Source of the DNA: Bradyrhizobium rifense
GTDB lineage: Bacteria > Pseudomonadota > Alphaproteobacteria > Rhizobiales > Xanthobacteraceae
Length of the DNA stretch: 64,000 bases
NCBI RefSeq assembly: GCF_008123425.1
Contig: NZ_VSSS01000084.1
Location: 1-64,000, forward strand
Direction: 5' to 3'
The translations under genes and the position numbers were made by a program. Under the pieces are notes generated by a model, which saw nothing but the letters and a program-made list of their open reading frames with translations, had not been told where the DNA came from and did no database searches. Below, piece by piece: positions 4,539 through 34,872 of the stretch (positions are counted from its first letter, which is position 1; every line of letters begins with the position of its first letter).

Positions 4539-5384
4539 ATGGCGCCGCGCGCATACTGGAAGGGTTCGTTGAAGCTATCGCTGGTGACATGCCCAATCGC
4601 GCTCTACCCAGCGTCCACGCAAGCGGAAAAAACCCACTTCCACCAGATCAACACCAAGACGGGCCATAGGCTTAAGCAGCAGATGGTGGACGAGGAGACC
4701 GGCCGAGTCGTCGACAAGGAACACAAGGCGCGGGGTTACGAACTCTCCAAGGGGCGCTATGTGCAGATCGAGGAGGACGAGCTCGACGCCGTCAAGATCG
4801 AAAGCACCCATACCATAGAGATCGACGACTTCGTGCCCTCCGAAGATATCGACGAGCGTTATCTGGACAAGCCTTACTACATCGTTCCCAACGGAAAGGC
4901 GGGCGCGGATGCCTTCGTCGTGATCCGGGACGCCATGAAGCGGAAGGAAAAGGTGGCGCTCGCTCGCGTGGTACTTTCGAACCGGGAGCACGTCATCGCG
5001 CTGAAACCTTTCGGCAAGGGCTTGCTCGGCACCACACTCCGTTATCCGTACGAACTCAGAGACGAGGACGACTATTTCGACGACATTCCCAGTCCGCGGG
5101 TCTCCAAGGACATGGTCGATTTGGCTGCGCATATCCTCGATACCAACGCTTCGAAATTCGATCCGAGCAAATTCAAGGACAAGTACGAAACCGCACTGAA
5201 GGCGCTGGTCAAGCGCAAGGCGGCCGGCAAGACCATCGAGGTACCTGAGGCCGAAGAGCAGGAAAGCAACGTCATCGATCTGATGGACGCGTTGAAACAA
5301 AGCCTCGGCCGCAAGAAATCAAAGATGAAGCCGGCCAGAAGAAAGCGCGCCGGATCGCGCGGCCGCGGGCGCAAGGCCGCATGA
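4539..5384 (+). CDS. ku: non-homologous end-joining protein Ku
   Basis: Ku homodimers thread onto broken DNA ends and recruit LigD/LigC. The 281-residue product starts MAPRAYWKGSLKLSLVTCPIALYPA, the typical bacterial Ku beta-barrel entry, and includes 'RYVQIEEDELDAVKIESTHTIEIDDFV' and 'YLDKPYYIVPNGK'. Its C-terminal tail is a long lysine/arginine-rich extension (KKSKMKPARRKRAGSRGRGRK), as in other rhizobial Ku proteins, and probably contacts DNA. A GGAGGA ribosome site precedes the ATG. It overlaps ligC by 4 nt and sits behind an EcfG-like promoter, divergent from the broken ligD. Confidence 0.95.
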   Translation: MAPRAYWKGSLKLSLVTCPIALYPASTQAEKTHFHQINTKTGHRLKQQMVDEETGRVVDKEHKARGYELSKGRYVQIEEDELDAVKIESTHTIEIDDFVPSEDIDERYLDKPYYIVPNGKAGADAFVVIRDAMKRKEKVALARVVLSNREHVIALKPFGKGLLGTTLRYPYELRDEDDYFDDIPSPRVSKDMVDLAAHILDTNASKFDPSKFKDKYETALKALVKRKAAGKTIEVPEAEEQESNVIDLMDALKQSLGRKKSKMKPARRKRAGSRGRGRKAA

Positions 5385-6424
5385 CGAAACGCTCGGCCTC
5401 CCTCGCCGCCATGGAGGCGCGTTCGGTCGACGCCATTCCGGAAGGCCCGGAGTGGCAGTACGAACCGAAATGGGACGGCTTTCGCTGCCTCTTGAGTCGT
5501 GACGACGAGGAAGTCTGCTTGCGCTCCAAGTCTGGTCAGGAGCTGTCCCGATACTTTCCTGAGATCGTCTCGGCTGCGCGCTCTCTGCGTGCGAAACGTT
5601 TCGTCTTGGACGGCGAAATCGTCGTACCCATCGATGGCCAGTTTTCGTTCGACGATCTACTCCAGCGCATCCATCCGGCCGCCAGCCGCGTGAGGAAACT
5701 GGCTTCGGAGACGCCAGCTATGTACTTGGCATTCGACTTGCTGAAGGCGGGTCGAGAAGACGTGGCGCCGGAACCATTGTCCGCGCGTCGGCCCTTATTG
5801 GAAGAATTCGCGAAGCGCCGGTTTTCGGATGCGACGCTGTTTCGGCTCTCGCCTGCCACGCGCGAACTGAAAGACGCTCAGGGCTGGCTGGCTTCGGCGG
5901 GCGGCGGTAGCGACGGCGTGATCGCAAAGCGTCTGGATCTGCCCTATCAGGCGGGCAATCGCGAAGGCATGCAGAAGATAAAGAAGTACCGCAGCGCGGA
6001 CTGCGTGATCGGCGGTTTCCGTTATGCCGAGAAGCTCACATCCGGTAGGAAGGTCGTCGGCTCGGTGCTACTCGGGCTTTACGATGACGAAGGCCTGCTG
6101 CATCACGTGGGATTTTCGTCTGGCATCAAAGCTAGGGACAAAGCCGCGCTTACTTTTAAGTTGGAAGCCGTCCAACAGGAGCGAAGTTTCACAGGCAATG
6201 CGCCAGGTGGTCCGAGCCGCTGGTCGGCCAAACGCTCTTCGGAGTGGGTGCCAGTCAAGCCAAGATACGTCGTCGAGGTATCCTACGATCACTTCACGGG
6301 AGGACGATTTCGGCATGGTACCTCCATCCTGAGATGGCGATCCGACAAGAAGCCCGCACAGTGCACGATGGAGCAGGTGAAGCAGAAAGTAGCCCGCAAA
6401 CTGATCAATTCACTGGCCCTATAG
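5381..6424 (+). CDS. ligC: ATP-dependent DNA ligase, LigC type
   Basis: This is a stand-alone NHEJ ligase of 347 residues lacking the phosphoesterase and polymerase domains. Motif I 'YEPKWDGFRCLL' places the adenylated lysine at residue 30; 'FVLDGEIVVP' and 'SDGVIAKRLDLPY' are motifs III and IV, and 'YRSADCVIGGFRY' leads into motif V. The C-terminal OB-fold runs to 'HFTGGRFRHGTSILRWR'. The start codon overlaps the ku stop (ATGA), so the two are translationally coupled. With ligD broken, this is the likely partner of Ku. A homologue lies at 31459-32505. Confidence 0.93.
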   Translation: MTKRSASLAAMEARSVDAIPEGPEWQYEPKWDGFRCLLSRDDEEVCLRSKSGQELSRYFPEIVSAARSLRAKRFVLDGEIVVPIDGQFSFDDLLQRIHPAASRVRKLASETPAMYLAFDLLKAGREDVAPEPLSARRPLLEEFAKRRFSDATLFRLSPATRELKDAQGWLASAGGGSDGVIAKRLDLPYQAGNREGMQKIKKYRSADCVIGGFRYAEKLTSGRKVVGSVLLGLYDDEGLLHHVGFSSGIKARDKAALTFKLEAVQQERSFTGNAPGGPSRWSAKRSSEWVPVKPRYVVEVSYDHFTGGRFRHGTSILRWRSDKKPAQCTMEQVKQKVARKLINSLAL

Positions 6425-17921: not shown

Positions 17922-18437
17922 TCAGGTGGCGGTGGAGGCCTTCTTGTTGACGCCCTTGCGCAACGCGACTGTGTTGAGCTTGGTGTTCGCCGCCTTTTCT
18001 TCGTTGAGGTTCGTGGTCAGGAAGCGAACGATATCGTCGTGGCCAAGCTCCTGCGCCCAGGCGATCAGTGTGCCATAGCGGCAAATCTCATAGTGCTCGA
18101 CCGCCTGCGCGTTGGCGACGATCGCCGCGTCCAGCACCGTCTTGTCTTCGATGTCGCCGGCCGTTTCGTCGGCTTCCTTGATGATGCCGTCGATGGCGGG
18201 ACATTGCGTGCCGCTTGGCGACTGGCCAAGTTTCTCGAAGACCTTCTCAAGCCGTTCGATCTGCTTGTTGGTCTCCTCGAGATGATTCTTGAGGCCGGTT
18301 TCCAGATCACGGTTGGTGGCCTTGTCGATCATTTTCGGCAAGGCCTTGGTGATCTGCTGCTCGGCATAATAGATGTCCTGTAAGCCATGCAGCAGCAGGT
18401 CGTCCATCGTCTTGATGTCTTTGGTGAATAGTCCCAC
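17922..18437 (-). CDS. YciE/YciF-like ferritin-fold protein (DUF892)
   Basis: This is a 171-residue four-helix-bundle protein related to E. coli YciF, a stress-induced ferritin-like protein. It contains 'LLLHGLQDIYYAEQQITKALPKMIDKA', 'LKNHLEETNKQIERLEKVFEKLG' and 'AQAVEHYEICRYGTLIAWAQELGHDDIVRFL', with Glu/His positions suited to a di-metal site. It has an EcfG-like promoter. Further copies in the window are a fusion domain (25974-26475), a broken fragment (33258-33591) and a tail remnant (13577-13633). Confidence 0.9.
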   Translation of the reverse strand: MGLFTKDIKTMDDLLLHGLQDIYYAEQQITKALPKMIDKATNRDLETGLKNHLEETNKQIERLEKVFEKLGQSPSGTQCPAIDGIIKEADETAGDIEDKTVLDAAIVANAQAVEHYEICRYGTLIAWAQELGHDDIVRFLTTNLNEEKAANTKLNTVALRKGVNKKASTAT

Positions 18438-18463: not shown

Positions 18464-18488
18464 AACGCACGCTCAGCGTGCCGGTTCC
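18464..18488 (-). promoter_or_regulatory. EcfG-type general stress promoter for DUF892 gene
   Basis: On the minus strand GGAAC (18488-18484), a 16-nt spacer and CGTT (18467-18464) match the EcfG consensus, 27 bp before the ATG at 18437. Confidence 0.65.
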
Positions 18489-18596: not shown

Positions 18597-20102
18597 ATGG
18601 TCAGCACCTCGCTCTGGATGGAGACGGAGATCCTGCCGGAAGCGGGAGCGCTTAAAGGCGATGTGCGCTGCGATGTCGCCGTGGTCGGCTCCGGCATCGC
18701 CGGGCTCTCGACGGCGTACGAACTCATGAAGCGCGGCCGGTCAGTCGTCGTCATTGATCGCAAAGGCATCGCAAGCGGTATGACGGCGCGCACGTCGGCG
18801 CACCTTGCGCCGCTTTGTGATGATCTGATGAGCGAATTCAAGAAGCTGCGCGGCGCCGATGCCGCCAAGCTGTTCTACGAAAGTCAGGCTGCCGCCGTCG
18901 ACCGGATCGAGGACATCCAGGCCGGCGAGAATATTGCCTGCGACTTCCTCCGTACTAACGGCTATCTTTTTCAAGACAACGGCATGCCGGCCGATATATT
19001 CGATGAGGAGCTGGAAGCGGTGCGCGAGGTCGGCGCTCCCGTTCACCGGCTGGTCGGCGTGCCCCTCAAAGGCTGCGAGAACCGGCATGTCCTTCAATAT
19101 CCACGCCAAGGAAAATTCCACCCCCTTAAATATCTCGCCGGACTTGCGGCCGTTTGCGAGAGCGGCGGCGTTCGTTTCTTTGCCAACAGTCCAGTGGAAG
19201 AAGTTGCCGAGCAGGACGGCGCCGTCACGCTGCGAACATCGCAAGGGCAGGTCACGGCCAGCCACGCCGTGATCGCGACCAACGCATCCATCGCCGATCG
19301 GTTTCAACTGCACACGAAGGTGGCTCCCTATCGCACGTATGTCGTCGCTTTCGACATTGAACGGGGCGAACTTCCCGATGCGCTCTATTGGGACACCGAA
19401 GATCCCTACCACTATGTACGGCTGCAAACCGGCCCAGACGATCATGATTTCGTCCTTGTCGGCGGCGAAGACCATAAAAGCGGCGAGGCCAACGACGCCG
19501 ACAAACGCTTTGCCCGGCTGGAAAGCTGGGCACGCGACCTGATCCCGGCTTTGGGCCGCATCACCCATCGCTGGTCGGGTCAGGTTCTCGATACGATCGA
19601 CTATGCCGGCTTCATCGGCCGCGAGCCCGGCAGCGAGCGCATCTACCTCGCGATGGGAGATTCAGGCCAGGGTCTGACCCATGGCGTGATGGGCGCGATG
19701 CTGAACACGGCGCTCATTCTGGGCGAAGATCATCCCTGGAAGCCCGTCTATGCGCCGGATCGCAAGCCGCTCGCAGCGGCGCGGAACTTCCTACGCGAGA
19801 ACATGACGATCCTGCAAAATCTTGCGGAATACGTGGCACCGGGTGAAATCGCTTCCCTCGAAGAGCTTGAGCCGGGTGAGGGCGCTATCCTGCGGCGGGG
19901 ACTCGAAAAGATCGCCGCCTACAAGGACAAGGCCGGCGAACTGCATCTTCATTCGGCCAGTTGCACCCATATCGGCTGTCATCTGCACTGGAATAGCTTT
20001 GAGAGCTGCTGGGACTGCCCGTGCCACGGTTCGATCTTTGCCCCCAACGGACAGCCGATCAATGCACCGGCCGTGTCGGCCTTGCGCCCGGTGAAGGTCT
20101 AG
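18597..20102 (+). CDS. FAD-dependent oxidoreductase with C-terminal Rieske domain
   Basis: The 501-residue product begins with a DAO-type FAD domain ('DVAVVGSGIAGLSTAYELMKRGRSVVVIDR', then 'GMTARTSAHLAPLCDDL') and ends with a Rieske [2Fe-2S] domain: Cys456-x-His458 ('CTH') and Cys474-x-x-His477 ('CPCH'). This arrangement occurs in uncharacterised bacterial oxidoreductases related to glycine and sarcosine oxidases, where the cluster probably carries electrons from flavin. I start at 18597 (MVSTSLWMETEILPE) after a GGTGGAG site. The next gene is a second DAO-type flavoprotein in another frame. It is divergent from the stress-regulated DUF892 gene. Confidence 0.88.
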   Translation: MVSTSLWMETEILPEAGALKGDVRCDVAVVGSGIAGLSTAYELMKRGRSVVVIDRKGIASGMTARTSAHLAPLCDDLMSEFKKLRGADAAKLFYESQAAAVDRIEDIQAGENIACDFLRTNGYLFQDNGMPADIFDEELEAVREVGAPVHRLVGVPLKGCENRHVLQYPRQGKFHPLKYLAGLAAVCESGGVRFFANSPVEEVAEQDGAVTLRTSQGQVTASHAVIATNASIADRFQLHTKVAPYRTYVVAFDIERGELPDALYWDTEDPYHYVRLQTGPDDHDFVLVGGEDHKSGEANDADKRFARLESWARDLIPALGRITHRWSGQVLDTIDYAGFIGREPGSERIYLAMGDSGQGLTHGVMGAMLNTALILGEDHPWKPVYAPDRKPLAAARNFLRENMTILQNLAEYVAPGEIASLEELEPGEGAILRRGLEKIAAYKDKAGELHLHSASCTHIGCHLHWNSFESCWDCPCHGSIFAPNGQPINAPAVSALRPVKV

Positions 20103-21355
20103 GGGGTCAAGGCACCTGGGAGCGTTCCATCTTCAAAAATGATGACATCGAGCAGGACGATCTGCGCAGCCCGCGCGCACCGTGGGCCGTCCTGCCGCCG
20201 CCGCCGATTGAACCGATAGCTGACAGCTTTCGATGCGAGGTGTTGATCATCGGCGCTGGCATCACCGGCGCGCTGGTGGCCGAGCGTCTGACACGGCAAG
20301 GCCGCCAAGTTGTCATTATCGATCGCGAGCTTCCCAGTCTCGGCAGCACGGTGGCCAGCACCGCCATGCTGCTCTGGGAAATCGACCGGCCACTGTTCGA
20401 ACTCGCGCAGCTCTACGGCTTCGAGAAAGCCGTGCGCTGCTATCGGGCCAGCCACCATGCCGCGCAAGGCCTCCTGTCCCTGGTTGCGCATCAGGGAATT
20501 GCGTGCCAGATGCGTCCGCGTCTCTCGCTCTATCTCGCTGTCGATGACAGTCCGAAGCTTGTTCAGGATGAATACGCGCTGAGAAACCGCGCCGATCTGC
20601 CATCCCGCTATCTCGATCATGCCGCGCTTCTGAAGCGCTTTGGCATCGCGCGGGCGGACGCCCTTTTGTCAGGGGACGCGGCTGACGCCGATCCGGTGCT
20701 GCTCACGCATGGCCTGCTTGATATCGCGCTTCGGCGCGGCGCCCGCCTTCTCAAGGCTGATGCGGTTGCCTTTGATAGCGCGGGCCGGAGCGTAACCGTC
20801 GGCCTCGAAAGCGGGCTTTCGATCGAGGCGCGCTGTGTCGTGCTCGCGACCGGCTATGTAATACCCGACATCGTGAAGCCCACAGCCCAACCGGCTTCCA
20901 GCTGGGCCATTGCGACCCGGCGGCAGCCGGGCAATCTGTGGCCAGAGCAGGTGCTGATCTGGGAAGCGAGCCGGAACTATCATTATGCGCGGACTACCGC
21001 TAATGGCCGCATCATCCTTGGTGGCGAGGATGATCATGCGCTGATCGAGCCTGATGCTCGCAATGACGCAACGCCGGCAAAGATTGCTGCGCTCAAGCAT
21101 TATCTGAAGGCACTTTGGCCGCAGGCCTCGGACCGGGTCGACTTCACCTGGTCGGGCGCTTTCGATACCACCCATGACGGCCTGCCGTTAATCGGCGCGG
21201 TGCCCGGCTGCAAGAATATCTTCGCCGCCTTTGGCTATGGCGGCAACGGAATTACCTTTAGTTTCCTCGCGGCGGAACTTCTGGCTGCGTTGCTTGCCGG
21301 GGGCTCTTCGCCCCTGCTCAATGATCTTGCGATTGACCGCGATATTCCTGGCTAA
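20021..21355 (+). CDS. FAD-dependent oxidoreductase (DAO family)
   Basis: This flavoprotein has the Rossmann FAD motif 'CEVLIIGAGITGALVAERLTRQGRQVVIID', 'STVASTAMLLWEID' and the C-terminal 'DTTHDGLPLIGAVPGCKNIFAAFGYGGNGITFS', which closes the FAD site. It has no Rieske domain. The start is a problem: the only in-frame GTG, ATG or TTG before the Rossmann fold is the GTG at 20021, deep inside the preceding gene, while family-like sequence starts near 20141 ('DDIEQDDLRSPRAPWAV'). A non-standard start or a small indel near the ATGs at 20139/20142 is likely. It probably works with the upstream FAD-Rieske protein. Confidence 0.8.
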   Translation: MPRFDLCPQRTADQCTGRVGLAPGEGLGGQGTWERSIFKNDDIEQDDLRSPRAPWAVLPPPPIEPIADSFRCEVLIIGAGITGALVAERLTRQGRQVVIIDRELPSLGSTVASTAMLLWEIDRPLFELAQLYGFEKAVRCYRASHHAAQGLLSLVAHQGIACQMRPRLSLYLAVDDSPKLVQDEYALRNRADLPSRYLDHAALLKRFGIARADALLSGDAADADPVLLTHGLLDIALRRGARLLKADAVAFDSAGRSVTVGLESGLSIEARCVVLATGYVIPDIVKPTAQPASSWAIATRRQPGNLWPEQVLIWEASRNYHYARTTANGRIILGGEDDHALIEPDARNDATPAKIAALKHYLKALWPQASDRVDFTWSGAFDTTHDGLPLIGAVPGCKNIFAAFGYGGNGITFSFLAAELLAALLAGGSSPLLNDLAIDRDIPG

Positions 21356-21534
21356 CGGCGCGCGATCAGGCTGCCTAGCATGAAGGCGACGAGTAGCGAG
21401 GGCAGCGGCGCCTCTCGCACCACGTCGCGCAGAAAGGCGAGCGCCTGGCCTGGCGGCTGCCCTTCTTCCGGGCTTTGCCGCACAGTGCGGGCGGTCTCAC
21501 GCACGCCTTCCGAAACGTCCTTCACTTTTGCCAT
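21352..21534 (-). CDS. small protein with C-terminal membrane helix, 60 aa
   Basis: MAKVKDVSEGVRETARTVRQ... ends in 'APLPSLLVAFMLGSLIARR', a tail-anchor-like helix, preceded by an amphipathic charged region. This resembles small YqjD/ElaB-like tail-anchored proteins, although it is shorter. The ribosome site is weak and upstream in-frame sequence to 21702 is arginine-rich without support. It converges on the FAD gene with overlapping ends. Confidence 0.5.
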   Translation of the reverse strand: MAKVKDVSEGVRETARTVRQSPEEGQPPGQALAFLRDVVREAPLPSLLVAFMLGSLIARR

Positions 21535-21772
21535 AGGCGTCTTCGCTGTCCATCTGATCCTCCTCCGGCATATCCAACAAGCCACGCTCATGGATGCCCA
21601 GTCGTTCCTCCACCGTTCTGTCCTTCGCCATGAAGCCGTTGTTGTGAAGTGAACCATCGGCGGAAGCTTGCCTCGGCGCCTAAGACGAAAGACGGAGAGC
21701 AAGCCCCAGCGACTCCGCTTATCGTGGCGTAATGGTCTGTCCTCGCGTGTGCCGTACGGAAGACCCGATTTA

Positions 21773-21798
21773 GGAACTTCTGATCTCGGCCGGGCGTT
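21773..21798 (+). promoter_or_regulatory. EcfG-type general stress promoter for the PAS/HisKA_2 kinase
   Basis: GGAAC at 21773-21777, a 17-nt spacer and CGTT at 21795-21798 match the EcfG consensus, 105 bp before the kinase ATG. Confidence 0.65.
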
Positions 21799-21903
21799 TA
21801 GCCATGTTTCGCGGAGTCGGGAACCAACCGGCCAAGGCGACCCAGGGGCAGGAAAAACAATGGTGCCGCACCCCTCTTGGTCCTGGCGCGGGGGATGAGA
21901 CTT

Positions 21904-25139: not shown

Positions 25140-25164
25140 GGAACAACCGCAGCGCCTGGCTGTT
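25140..25164 (+). promoter_or_regulatory. EcfG-like promoter for Mn-catalase gene
   Basis: GGAAC at 25140-25144, a 16-nt spacer and TGTT at 25161-25164 (one mismatch to CGTT) lie 36 bp before the catalase ATG. Confidence 0.5.
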
Positions 25165-25199: not shown

Positions 25200-26475
25200 A
25201 TGTATCACCACGTCAAGAAGTTGATGTTCACCGTCCGCGTCGATGAGCCGGACCCGCGTTTTGGCAACATGCTTCTTGAACAGTTCGGCGGCGCCAATGG
25301 CGAACTTGCAGCAGCAATGCAATATTCGATCCAGGGACTCAATTGCGAAGACCCGGATCGCAAGGACCTCCTGATGGATATCGGAACCGAAGAGCTGAGC
25401 CATCTGGAAGTCGTCGGTACGCTGGCCCGCATGCATCTCAAGCCGGCGAAGTTTGATCGCCAGGCGGCCGAGGCCGATCCGCTGATCGCGATCGCGGGTG
25501 GGGGCGGCGTGAACCTCTTCAATTCGCAAGGCAATGCCTGGACCGCCGATTACCTGAAGATCACGGGCGAACTGGACGTGGACCTGCGCAGCAATATTGC
25601 CGCCGAAGCGCGGGCGAAGATCGTCTACGAACGCCTGATCAACTTTACTGACGACGCCGGCACTAAGGACGCCTTGCAGGTTCCTCATGACCCGCGAAAT
25701 CACCCATATGAAGGCATTCTCGCTCGCCCTCGAGAGCATGAGCAAGCCGGCCTTCAGCATTGGCCGCATCGCGCCCACACCGGGTCTCGTCGACCAGTTC
25801 TTCAACGACTCCACGGGCACCGGCGATCATGGTGAGATCGACACCCGCGGGCCCTGGAACGAGGGCGGCGAATGGGTCTTCACGGAATCGCCGGCCATTC
25901 AGGCCGGGGAACCAGGACCCGCGGCGGCTATCGTCACCGAAAGCTCACCGCCGGTCGACGAGGCCGGTCTTGGCGACCTGCTGATCGACGAGCTCCGCGA
26001 CATCCTTCACGCCGAGAAGCAGTTGACGAAGGCGCTTCCCAAGATGGCGGAAGCGGCGCGATTCGACCAGTTGCGCGAGCTGTTCGAGCTGCATCTCGGC
26101 GAGACCGAAACCCAGATCGAGCGCATCAATGAATGCTTTGAGTTGCTCGGCAAGTCCGCGCGCGCCAAGCCCTGCAAGGGCATGATGGGTCTTGTCGAAG
26201 AAGGTCAGGAAGTCATGACCGAGGGCGAGGAGAAGGAAGACGCCGCGGCCGACCTCGCCCTGATCGGCGCGGCGCAGCGGGTCGAGCATTATGAGATTGC
26301 CGGCTAGACGACAGCGCGCAACCTTGCCCAGCAGCTACGCCATAGCGCCGTCGTCAGCCTCCTATCGAAGTCACTGGCAGAAGAGGAAAACGCGGACCAA
26401 TTGCTCAACCAGGTCGCGCGGTCCCTGATGTCCGTCGCCAAGATGCCGGCCGCCGTCGAACAGACCGAACAGTAG
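25200..26475 (+). pseudogene. manganese catalase fused to DUF892 domain, broken
   Basis: The N-terminal part is a di-manganese catalase: 'MYHHVKKLMFTVRVDEPDPRF', 'FGGANGELAAAMQYSIQG' and 'DIGTEELSHLEVVGTLARMH' supply the Glu and His metal ligands. After an extra G near 25681 it continues in another frame with 'FLMTREITHMKAFSLALESM' to 'GDHGEIDTRGPWNEGGEW', then without a stop into a DUF892 domain ('LLIDELRDILHAEKQLTKALPKM'). In that domain a TAG at 26305 replaces the Tyr of 'AGYTTARNLAQQL'; the remaining codons run to 26475. The frameshift could be an error, but the nonsense codon is harder to dismiss. Catalase-DUF892 fusion as such appears original, not caused by the damage. Confidence 0.8.
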
Positions 26476-32505: not shown

Positions 32506-32642
32506 GCCTCCCGGAGGGGGCGCAGGACACTGATCGTGAAGCCCTGGCTTTTCACGGCATCAAGCGAAACCGTCTGGAAAACGTTCCTCCGTCACGGTTA
32601 TGCTGCGATTGATTTCGATGTCGGCTCCTTCTGCTCCAGTCG

Positions 32643-33256
32643 CTACAGCAGTTCTCTCAACGCCTGCGCGTCGGCCGGCGCCGCACTCTTCTGGTCGTTG
32701 TCGAAATAGACAAAGGAGTCGCAGCCTTGCCGCCTCCACGATTTGAGGCGCCCTGCCCACTGGGTGAGCGCTGTCTGCGAGTAATGGCCGGGATAGCGCC
32801 GCCTGGACCGTGTCCGCGGACATACACGAAGTCCCGTGGGCTTCCAGCGAGCTGACGCATCGTGATGCGTCGGACAGGTAGAGTGAGATACACTTGTTAG
32901 CCAGCATCCGGAGAACGCGCGGCTGATACCAGCTCGCACGCCGAAATTCGAAACTGTAACAGCGTTCCCTGGAGAGAAGCTTGAAGAAGGACCCCAGCCG
33001 ATCTGGGTCCGCTTCAAACTGCGGCGGAAGCTGAAACAGGATCGGGCCGACCTTGCCGCGTAAAAAGGAAATGCGACTTTCAAGCAGGTCGAGGCTGTTC
33101 TCGGAGCGTTCGGACAGACGCTTCCCGTGCGTGGTCAAATTCGTAGCCTTCCATATGAATACGAAGTCGCGCCCGGTCTGGTCGCGCCATGCCTTCACTG
33201 TCTCTAGCGTAGGAGTACGGTAGAACACGCCGTTCAGTTCGGTGGTCTCAAACGCC
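32643..33256 (-). pseudogene. DUF72 protein, 5'-truncated with several frameshifts
   Basis: The readable part is 'FETTELNGVFYRTPTLETVKAWRDQTGRDFVFIWKA', 'GPILFQLPPQFEAD' and 'YSFEFRRASWYQPRVLRML', the DUF72 TIM-barrel core (YecE-like). From about 32880 the reading frame changes three times: 'HHDASARWKPTG', then 'FVYVRGHGPGG', then 'GHYSQTALTQWAGRLKSWRRQGCDSFVYFDNDQKSAAPADA', and the stop is at 32643. The N-terminal 30 or so residues are missing; the sequence is cut at a junction with a DUF892 fragment on the other strand. Confidence 0.8.
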
Positions 33257-33257
33257 C

Positions 33258-33591
33258 GGCAGCTGCTCGGCAAAGCGGCGCGGGGCAAACCCTGCAAGGG
33301 CATGATGGGCCTAGTTGAAGAAGGTCAGGAAATCACCACGGAGGGCAAGGAGAAGGAAGACGCGGCGGCGGACCTCGCCTTGATCGGTGCGGCGCAGCGG
33401 GGTCGAGCATTACGAAATTGCCGGCTACACGACCGCGCGCAATCTCGCCCCAGCTACGCCACAGCGCGATCGTCGCCTTGTTGTCGAAATCGCTGGCGGA
33501 AGAGGAAAATGCCTATCAGTTGCTCAATCAGGTTGCTCGTTCCCTCATGTCGGTCGCAAAGATGCCAGCGGCGGTCGAACTGACAGAATAA
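33258..33591 (+). pseudogene. DUF892 C-terminal fragment (second copy of the 26.1 kb block)
   Basis: The frame gives 'KPCKGMMGLVEEGQEITTEGKEKEDAAADLALIGAAQR', then after an extra G and a 2-nt loss 'VEHYEIAGYTTARNLA' and 'IVALLSKSLAEEENAYQLLNQVARSLMSVAKMPAAVEL'. It matches the C-terminal DUF892 part of the catalase fusion closely at the DNA level, but here the Tyr codon that is TAG in the other copy is TAC. There is no start codon of its own. Confidence 0.75.
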
Positions 33592-34261: not shown

Positions 34262-34872
34262 TGATGAGCAATGCGCTCCCGCTACATTTCTTGGTGTGTC
34301 AGCGGCGAAGCCCGGGTCGTTTGCCTGCGCGGAGGCCGTGATCTTTGGCGCGCCGGACGCAACCCCGCATGTGCCCGGGCGCGCCAGTCATGCCGCGGGG
34401 CGCGCCCACCGCTTTTCGGGAGAGCACGAGACAAGAGGCCGAAGATTCTTCGTGTTGGGATTTTGCTCAGGACGGTCCTCTCCTGGATCGCGAGCTGAAA
34501 ATCATTGATCTCGGCTACCTTGCGACAGATCCGCAAACGCCGGAGGCGAACCGATCATTGATCACCTCCACGACATCTTCCATTGTGAACAGGCGTTGCC
34601 GTGCCTTTGCTGCGCGGCGGCGATGATTCCGTGCCCATTCCTTTCTTCGCGGGCTTCGAAGGGTTTGATCCGATCACCTTATTGCAGATCGATGCGCATC
34701 TTGACTGGCGTGACGAGCGCGCCGGTCTGAAGCATACCTTCTCGAGCACTATGCGCCGCGCCAGCGAAATGCCCTGGGTTGAACGCATCATCCAGGTCGG
34801 GCAACGGGGCATTGGCGGATCGCGCGCCAATGATCTTTCCGATGCCCGGGCCTGGGGCGTGACGTTGTGCCG
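34262..34872 (+). pseudogene. ureohydrolase (agmatinase-like), decayed second copy
   Basis: Three frames must be joined: 'APATFLGVSAAKPGSFACAEAVIFGAPDATPHVPG', then 'TAFRESTRQEAEDSSCWDFAQDGPLL' to 'EANRSLITSTTSSIV', then 'GGDDSVPIPFFAGFEGFDPITLLQIDAHLDWRDE' to 'RAWGVTL'. It is a close relative of 26928-27872, including the metal motifs, but is truncated after about 200 codons, so the 'DCDGLDP' motif is gone. After 34873 unrelated sequence follows, including a short tail 'YVTEGGHWKIRTLSAMPKPPPK' that may be the end of another lost gene. Confidence 0.8.

Follow-up and report, generated by a model that had tools for sequence, protein, structure and literature searches.

A gene joining a manganese catalase to a DUF892/YciF domain is conserved and common in the genus Bradyrhizobium, and a twice-broken copy of it lies at positions 25200–26475 of the 64,000-nucleotide stretch of Bradyrhizobium rifense DNA analysed here (the window; contig C125 of a 9.95 Mb draft assembly in 140 contigs). 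We put a probability of roughly 0.85 on one joint explanation: the window copy would be a young pseudogene, the recently inactivated spare of a conserved KatB-type catalase/DUF892 fusion, and the intact copies would be driven by the general stress sigma factor EcfG and would combine H2O2 removal with iron uptake.

Read through two frames and across one stop, the coding content of 25200–26475 is a PF05067 manganese catalase followed by a PF05974 DUF892/YciF domain, both on the plus strand. By alignments and profile match, the catalase keeps its frame over codons 1–160 (25200–25679), which include ligand positions E35, E65, H68 and E136. The window then reads GCAGGTTCC at 25676–25684, a stretch that is one base shorter in the two intact paralogues and in the six nearest relatives aligned. 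The original prediction placed an extra G near 25681; the surplus base is there, but its place is 25679 or 25680, just before, one of two Gs (25679–25680, plus strand). Past this frameshift, the catalase remainder with E166 and H169, the linker and the start of DUF892 are shifted into another frame (25681–26304), and the start frame, shifted after codon 160, ends at a stop at 25833–25835, giving 211 residues, about 160 of them catalase, without E166 and H169. The DUF892 domain (25972–26430; PF05974, 175.4 bits) contains one in-frame TAG at 26305–26307, which by alignment replaces Tyr369 and removes the domain's end. This substitution had been predicted, and it holds: the codon is TAC in all six aligned relatives, and all 89 intact genus copies have Tyr at residue 369. 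The ancestral stop codon of the fused gene, by alignment to relatives, is at 26473–26475.

Both fragments still score above cut-off (PF05067, 173.8 bits; PF05974, 140 bits over profile positions 3–112 of 159). The DUF892 fragment ends at profile position 112 of 159, and E394 and E395 are gone; these two residues, like E166 and H169, are invariant in the 89 intact genus copies. Since the first break costs the catalase E166 and H169 and the second costs DUF892 its last helix, neither fragment should work. The damage looks like ordinary gene decay.

That the catalase frame runs on into DUF892 with no stop between them, as originally proposed, is confirmed by two paralogues in the same genome (C101:54515–55783 and C35:38723–39985), each a single open frame with PF05067 followed by PF05974. 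Intact copies score 202–203 bits for PF05067 (cut-off 27) and 173 bits for PF05974, also above cut-off; against the NCBIfam ManCatBAC equivalog NF052557 they reach 138–151 bits, far below its cut-off of 350, and are thus related to it and not the named equivalog. The search for intact fusions in relatives that the original prediction recommended turned them up not only in this genome but across the genus and in other families of the order, and not merely separate catalase and DUF892 genes. With at most 12 candidate places scored per genome, the full-length fusion was found in 75 of 146 sampled genus genomes (B. rifense included), in 88 copies, with 12 genomes holding more than one. In one of the 75 (G135), the sole full-length copy found (L074) is interrupted by an in-frame stop at codon 114. 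The other 71 of the 146 yielded no full-length fusion, so the gene is dispensable in many strains. A sample of 297 genomes from the order contained fused copies outside the genus in five genomes from five families (G417, G420, G278, G321 and G318, the last with a damaged start). Among 385 genomes of the class, 8 had a match at E 1e-40, of which 2 were fused, both from the genus (one being our own genome), and 6 unfused; among 398 genomes of the phylum, 29 had a match, with 8 fused (7 from the genus including our own, plus G420) and 21 unfused. In a named collection, near-full-length matches among the best 80 of 252 came from Bradyrhizobium, Nitrobacter, Rhodopseudomonas and one Rhizobiales MAG. 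Stops flagged at the first scan in G145:C1:1303654 and G417 were absent from the extracted frames. At two loci (L208 and L209, 4001–5670) the tblastn span was about 400 nt longer than at the others, perhaps owing to an insertion or an additional DUF892-like stretch. The fused gene is real and no artefact.

A promoter-like site of the EcfG type, the general stress response sigma factor, lies 60 nt upstream of the window copy's ATG (GGAAC-N17-GTT by pattern match; 25140–25164, plus strand). The pattern GGAAC-N16-18-GTT, picked after seeing this upstream sequence and with the EcfG consensus in view, was present within 200 nt before the start in 84 of the 96 regions examined, those of the window and of 95 loci (start of L146 extrapolated), against 0.6 expected from dinucleotide shuffles, a count whose independence is overstated by the relatedness of the sequences, though the spacers differ widely. 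Its background was 132 of 6614 other 200-nt stretches. The motif as written was not found in 12 of the 96 regions, and the 83 sites in the 95 loci fell 53–73 nt before the start. PMC6599016 gives the S. melonis EcfG motif as GGAAC-N17-20-GTT. The broken copy retains its site at 25140, identical to those of three orthologues (L094–L096). Intact copies are most likely made under EcfG, judging from these sites. Elsewhere in the window, a stand-alone, near-complete DUF892 gene (17937–18410, minus strand; profile 1–157 of 159) has an EcfG-type site about 78 nt upstream, at 18488 on the minus strand, and further such sites include one at 21773 before a PAS/HWE histidine kinase gene at 21877; the pattern suggests a general stress response island.

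The nearest orthologues, L096, L095 and L094, occupy the matching place and are unbroken, with 97.8%, 95.9% and 95.9% DNA identity over the gene; the nearest comes from another Bradyrhizobium genome (G088). L094 and L095 align with the window across 7.2 kb at 94%, and the L096 alignment, at 91%, takes in the gene and its downstream side. The upstream flank of L096 matches window positions 18784–21568, so the kinase and receiver genes that match upstream in the other two orthologues are absent there. Under a strict rule, which counts a change only where the window departs from all five compared and the nearest four orthologues are in agreement, the window has seven private substitutions (five synonymous, one missense and the nonsense TAG) plus the insertion. 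So few private changes point to a young decay. The flanking kinase, receiver, arginase, SDR and ADH genes are all open in the window and gapless wherever the comparison with one or more orthologues reached (all but kinase residues 1–108 and ADH beyond residue 239); generally bad sequence at this locus is therefore unlikely. The downstream neighbour is an arginase-family gene (PF00491; 26757–27872, plus strand), open here and in L096. In L094 and L095 this neighbour is broken into two or three frames (about 4557–5668), and decay of the block thus hits different genes in different strains, arginase in those two and the fusion in the window.

A second copy at 33258 had been cited as having TAC where the first has TAG. 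TAC does stand at 33426–33428, but this is no clean copy: it is itself a remnant in three frames (33261–33590, plus strand), comprising the C-terminal part of DUF892 only and beginning inside that domain at about residue 309–315. The remnant of an arginase-family gene follows (34278–34863, plus strand). Over a 141-nt ungapped core, the 33261 remnant is 87% identical to the 25200 copy. We rejected the idea that the 33258 block arose from the 25200 block by recent tandem duplication, the remnant being 88.3% identical to the copy at another locus (L107) versus 82.7–83.2% to two orthologues of the 25200 copy (L096 and L093). The DUF72 gene at 32560–33303 (minus strand) matches only profile positions 9–142 of 217 and overlaps the remnant at 33261 with its 5′ end, so that one deletion junction probably cuts both.

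Broken copies also occur in other genomes. One in G039 (L295; C71, 1536–2805) is frameshifted between codons 61 and 62, and G013 and G012 hold C-terminal remnants; each of the three also has a full-length fused copy elsewhere in its genome. Together with the window, these cases indicate that decay of spare copies recurs. The stop-bearing copy in G135 is no spare, as it is the only full-length copy there. In B. rifense, two other open fused copies and three heme catalases mean that the window copy could be lost; being redundant, it would have been free to decay.

Residues E35, E65, H68, E136 and H169 of the fusion align with the dimanganese ligands of solved manganese catalases, which in L. plantarum are presumably E35, E66, H69, E148 and H181. 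All five are invariant in the 89 intact genus copies, which are related and not independent sequences (the 95 extracted loci minus L146, the stop-containing L074 and the other-family L142–L145). The putative metal positions of the DUF892 half (E272, H298, E362, E365, E394 and E395) are likewise invariant in 89 of 89, and would bind metal. The catalase half had a median dN/dS of 0.029 and the DUF892 half one of 0.050 (300 random pairs of the 89 sequences; values from 283 and 259 pairs, respectively), placing both under purifying selection. A FastTree phylogeny of the catalase domains of 14 fused sequences (of 95 extracted) and 32 unfused ones, with the 4 most distant as root, groups all 14 fused sequences in a single clade (support 0.996) that excludes the unfused ones. 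An AlphaFold2 model of an orthologue (L175), built from a 30-sequence alignment, had a mean pLDDT of 39.7 and a pTM of 0.27 and was discarded.

We inspected 32 unfused catalase loci, 28 KatB-like and 4 distant. A DUF892 gene directly adjoins the catalase in 10 of the 28 KatB-like loci, sharing its strand in 8 of these, and in 0 of the 4 distant ones; in the remaining 18 KatB-like loci none was found directly beside it. A first, narrower profile had given 7 adjacencies, and the second was built with ORFs that the first had found. Pfam confirmed 9 of 9 ORFs sent, covering the adjacency at six of the ten loci (L266, L268, L272, L274, L281 and L284); at L267, L270, L271 and L275 the identification of the adjacent ORF comes from our own profiles. 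At L274, L275 and L284, the catalase gene is preceded on its own strand by a pair of DUF892 genes. In a published test (PMC5126674), over-expression of three other DUF892 proteins in E. coli reduced sensed iron. The original idea that the fusion pairs H2O2 removal with metal binding is plausible in light of the conserved ligand positions, that published test and the adjacency in some unfused relatives.

The intact product would thus have a di-manganese catalase of KatB type at its N-terminus and a ferritin-like DUF892/YciF domain at its C-terminus, and would be produced under EcfG. Its catalase half would dismutate H2O2, its DUF892 half would take up free iron and so limit Fenton chemistry, and a single chain would supply both in fixed proportion, a putative benefit of fusion; H2O2 removal and iron binding would then act together under stress. 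Tentatively, and at somewhat less than even odds, we extend this to a bifunctional stress enzyme in which dimanganese peroxide dismutation is physically coupled to ferritin-like iron uptake, which arose once in Hyphomicrobiales from a catalase–DUF892 gene pair, has been kept under EcfG control, and whose spare copies have been repeatedly gained and lost across Bradyrhizobium.

Both breaks might instead be sequencing or assembly mistakes in a gene that is intact in the organism. The assembly is a draft in 140 contigs, the frameshift is a single base, and the gene has kept its promoter site and almost all of its codons, with a single private missense change; on the other hand, two unlike faults, an insertion and a substitution, would have to fall in one 1.3 kb gene amid neighbours that are open and, wherever they were compared, gapless against one orthologue or more, and other genomes have broken copies too (the frameshift in G039, the stop in G135 and the remnants in G013 and G012). 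We regard such error as improbable. Partial function of a split gene, with both fragments translated and, for example, the DUF892 part working alone, is less probable again: an ATG at 25687 does open a 206-aa frame with part of DUF892, but that part stops at profile position 112 of 159, ahead of the invariant E394 and E395, and the catalase fragment lacks H169. Least credible, to the point of being negligible, is recoding, in which a programmed frameshift and stop read-through would yield the full protein from the window copy. The preserved promoter site alone points that way; a frame break at the same site or a stop at codon 369 occurs in 0 of 95 extracted fused loci, and the open paralogues remove the need for it.

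A different objection concerns the fusion and not its broken copy, namely that DUF892 might be merely an oligomerisation or stability tail of the catalase, with no joint function. The faster evolution of the DUF892 half (0.050 versus 0.029) and the 18 of 28 unfused KatB-like relatives lacking a DUF892 gene directly beside the catalase fit this suggestion. Against it stand the six invariant putative metal positions and a DUF892 dN/dS that is still low, and we consider a mere tail doubtful, though a more serious contender than any of the alternatives concerning the breaks.

The decayed spare is itself of little weight and illustrates the loss of a redundant gene. Taken together, the fusion, the adjacency in some relatives and the conserved stress promoter are a concrete lead on the role of DUF892/YciF: still named a domain of unknown function, it would act alongside manganese catalase.

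Alr3090 of Anabaena, which we take to be KatB, is the closest solved relative of the catalase half (PDB 4r42, 6j42; aligned over residues 1–227), but is unlike the fusion in being a single 236-residue chain without DUF892. YciF (PDB 2gs4, 4eru) is one of the nearest solved relatives on the DUF892 side; unlike the fusion, these structures are of stand-alone proteins of 166–170 residues. The DUF892 genes of the yciGFEkatN operon are presumably yciF and yciE, as the YciF structures support. In Salmonella and EHEC, the manganese catalase gene katN shares this operon with yciGFE, according to PMC5363993; these are separate genes, in contrast to the fusion, and the catalase–DUF892 adjacency in unfused relatives resembles the operon so described. 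Going by titles and the opening lines of abstracts, no study of the fused protein was found in the literature. The fusion is nevertheless already in print, since PMC6727835, citing Hindupur et al. 2006, describes the YciF architecture with a manganese catalase domain in bll3758 of Bradyrhizobium japonicum; by that published description, bll3758 has the same Mn-catalase/YciF-like architecture as the gene whose window copy is broken.
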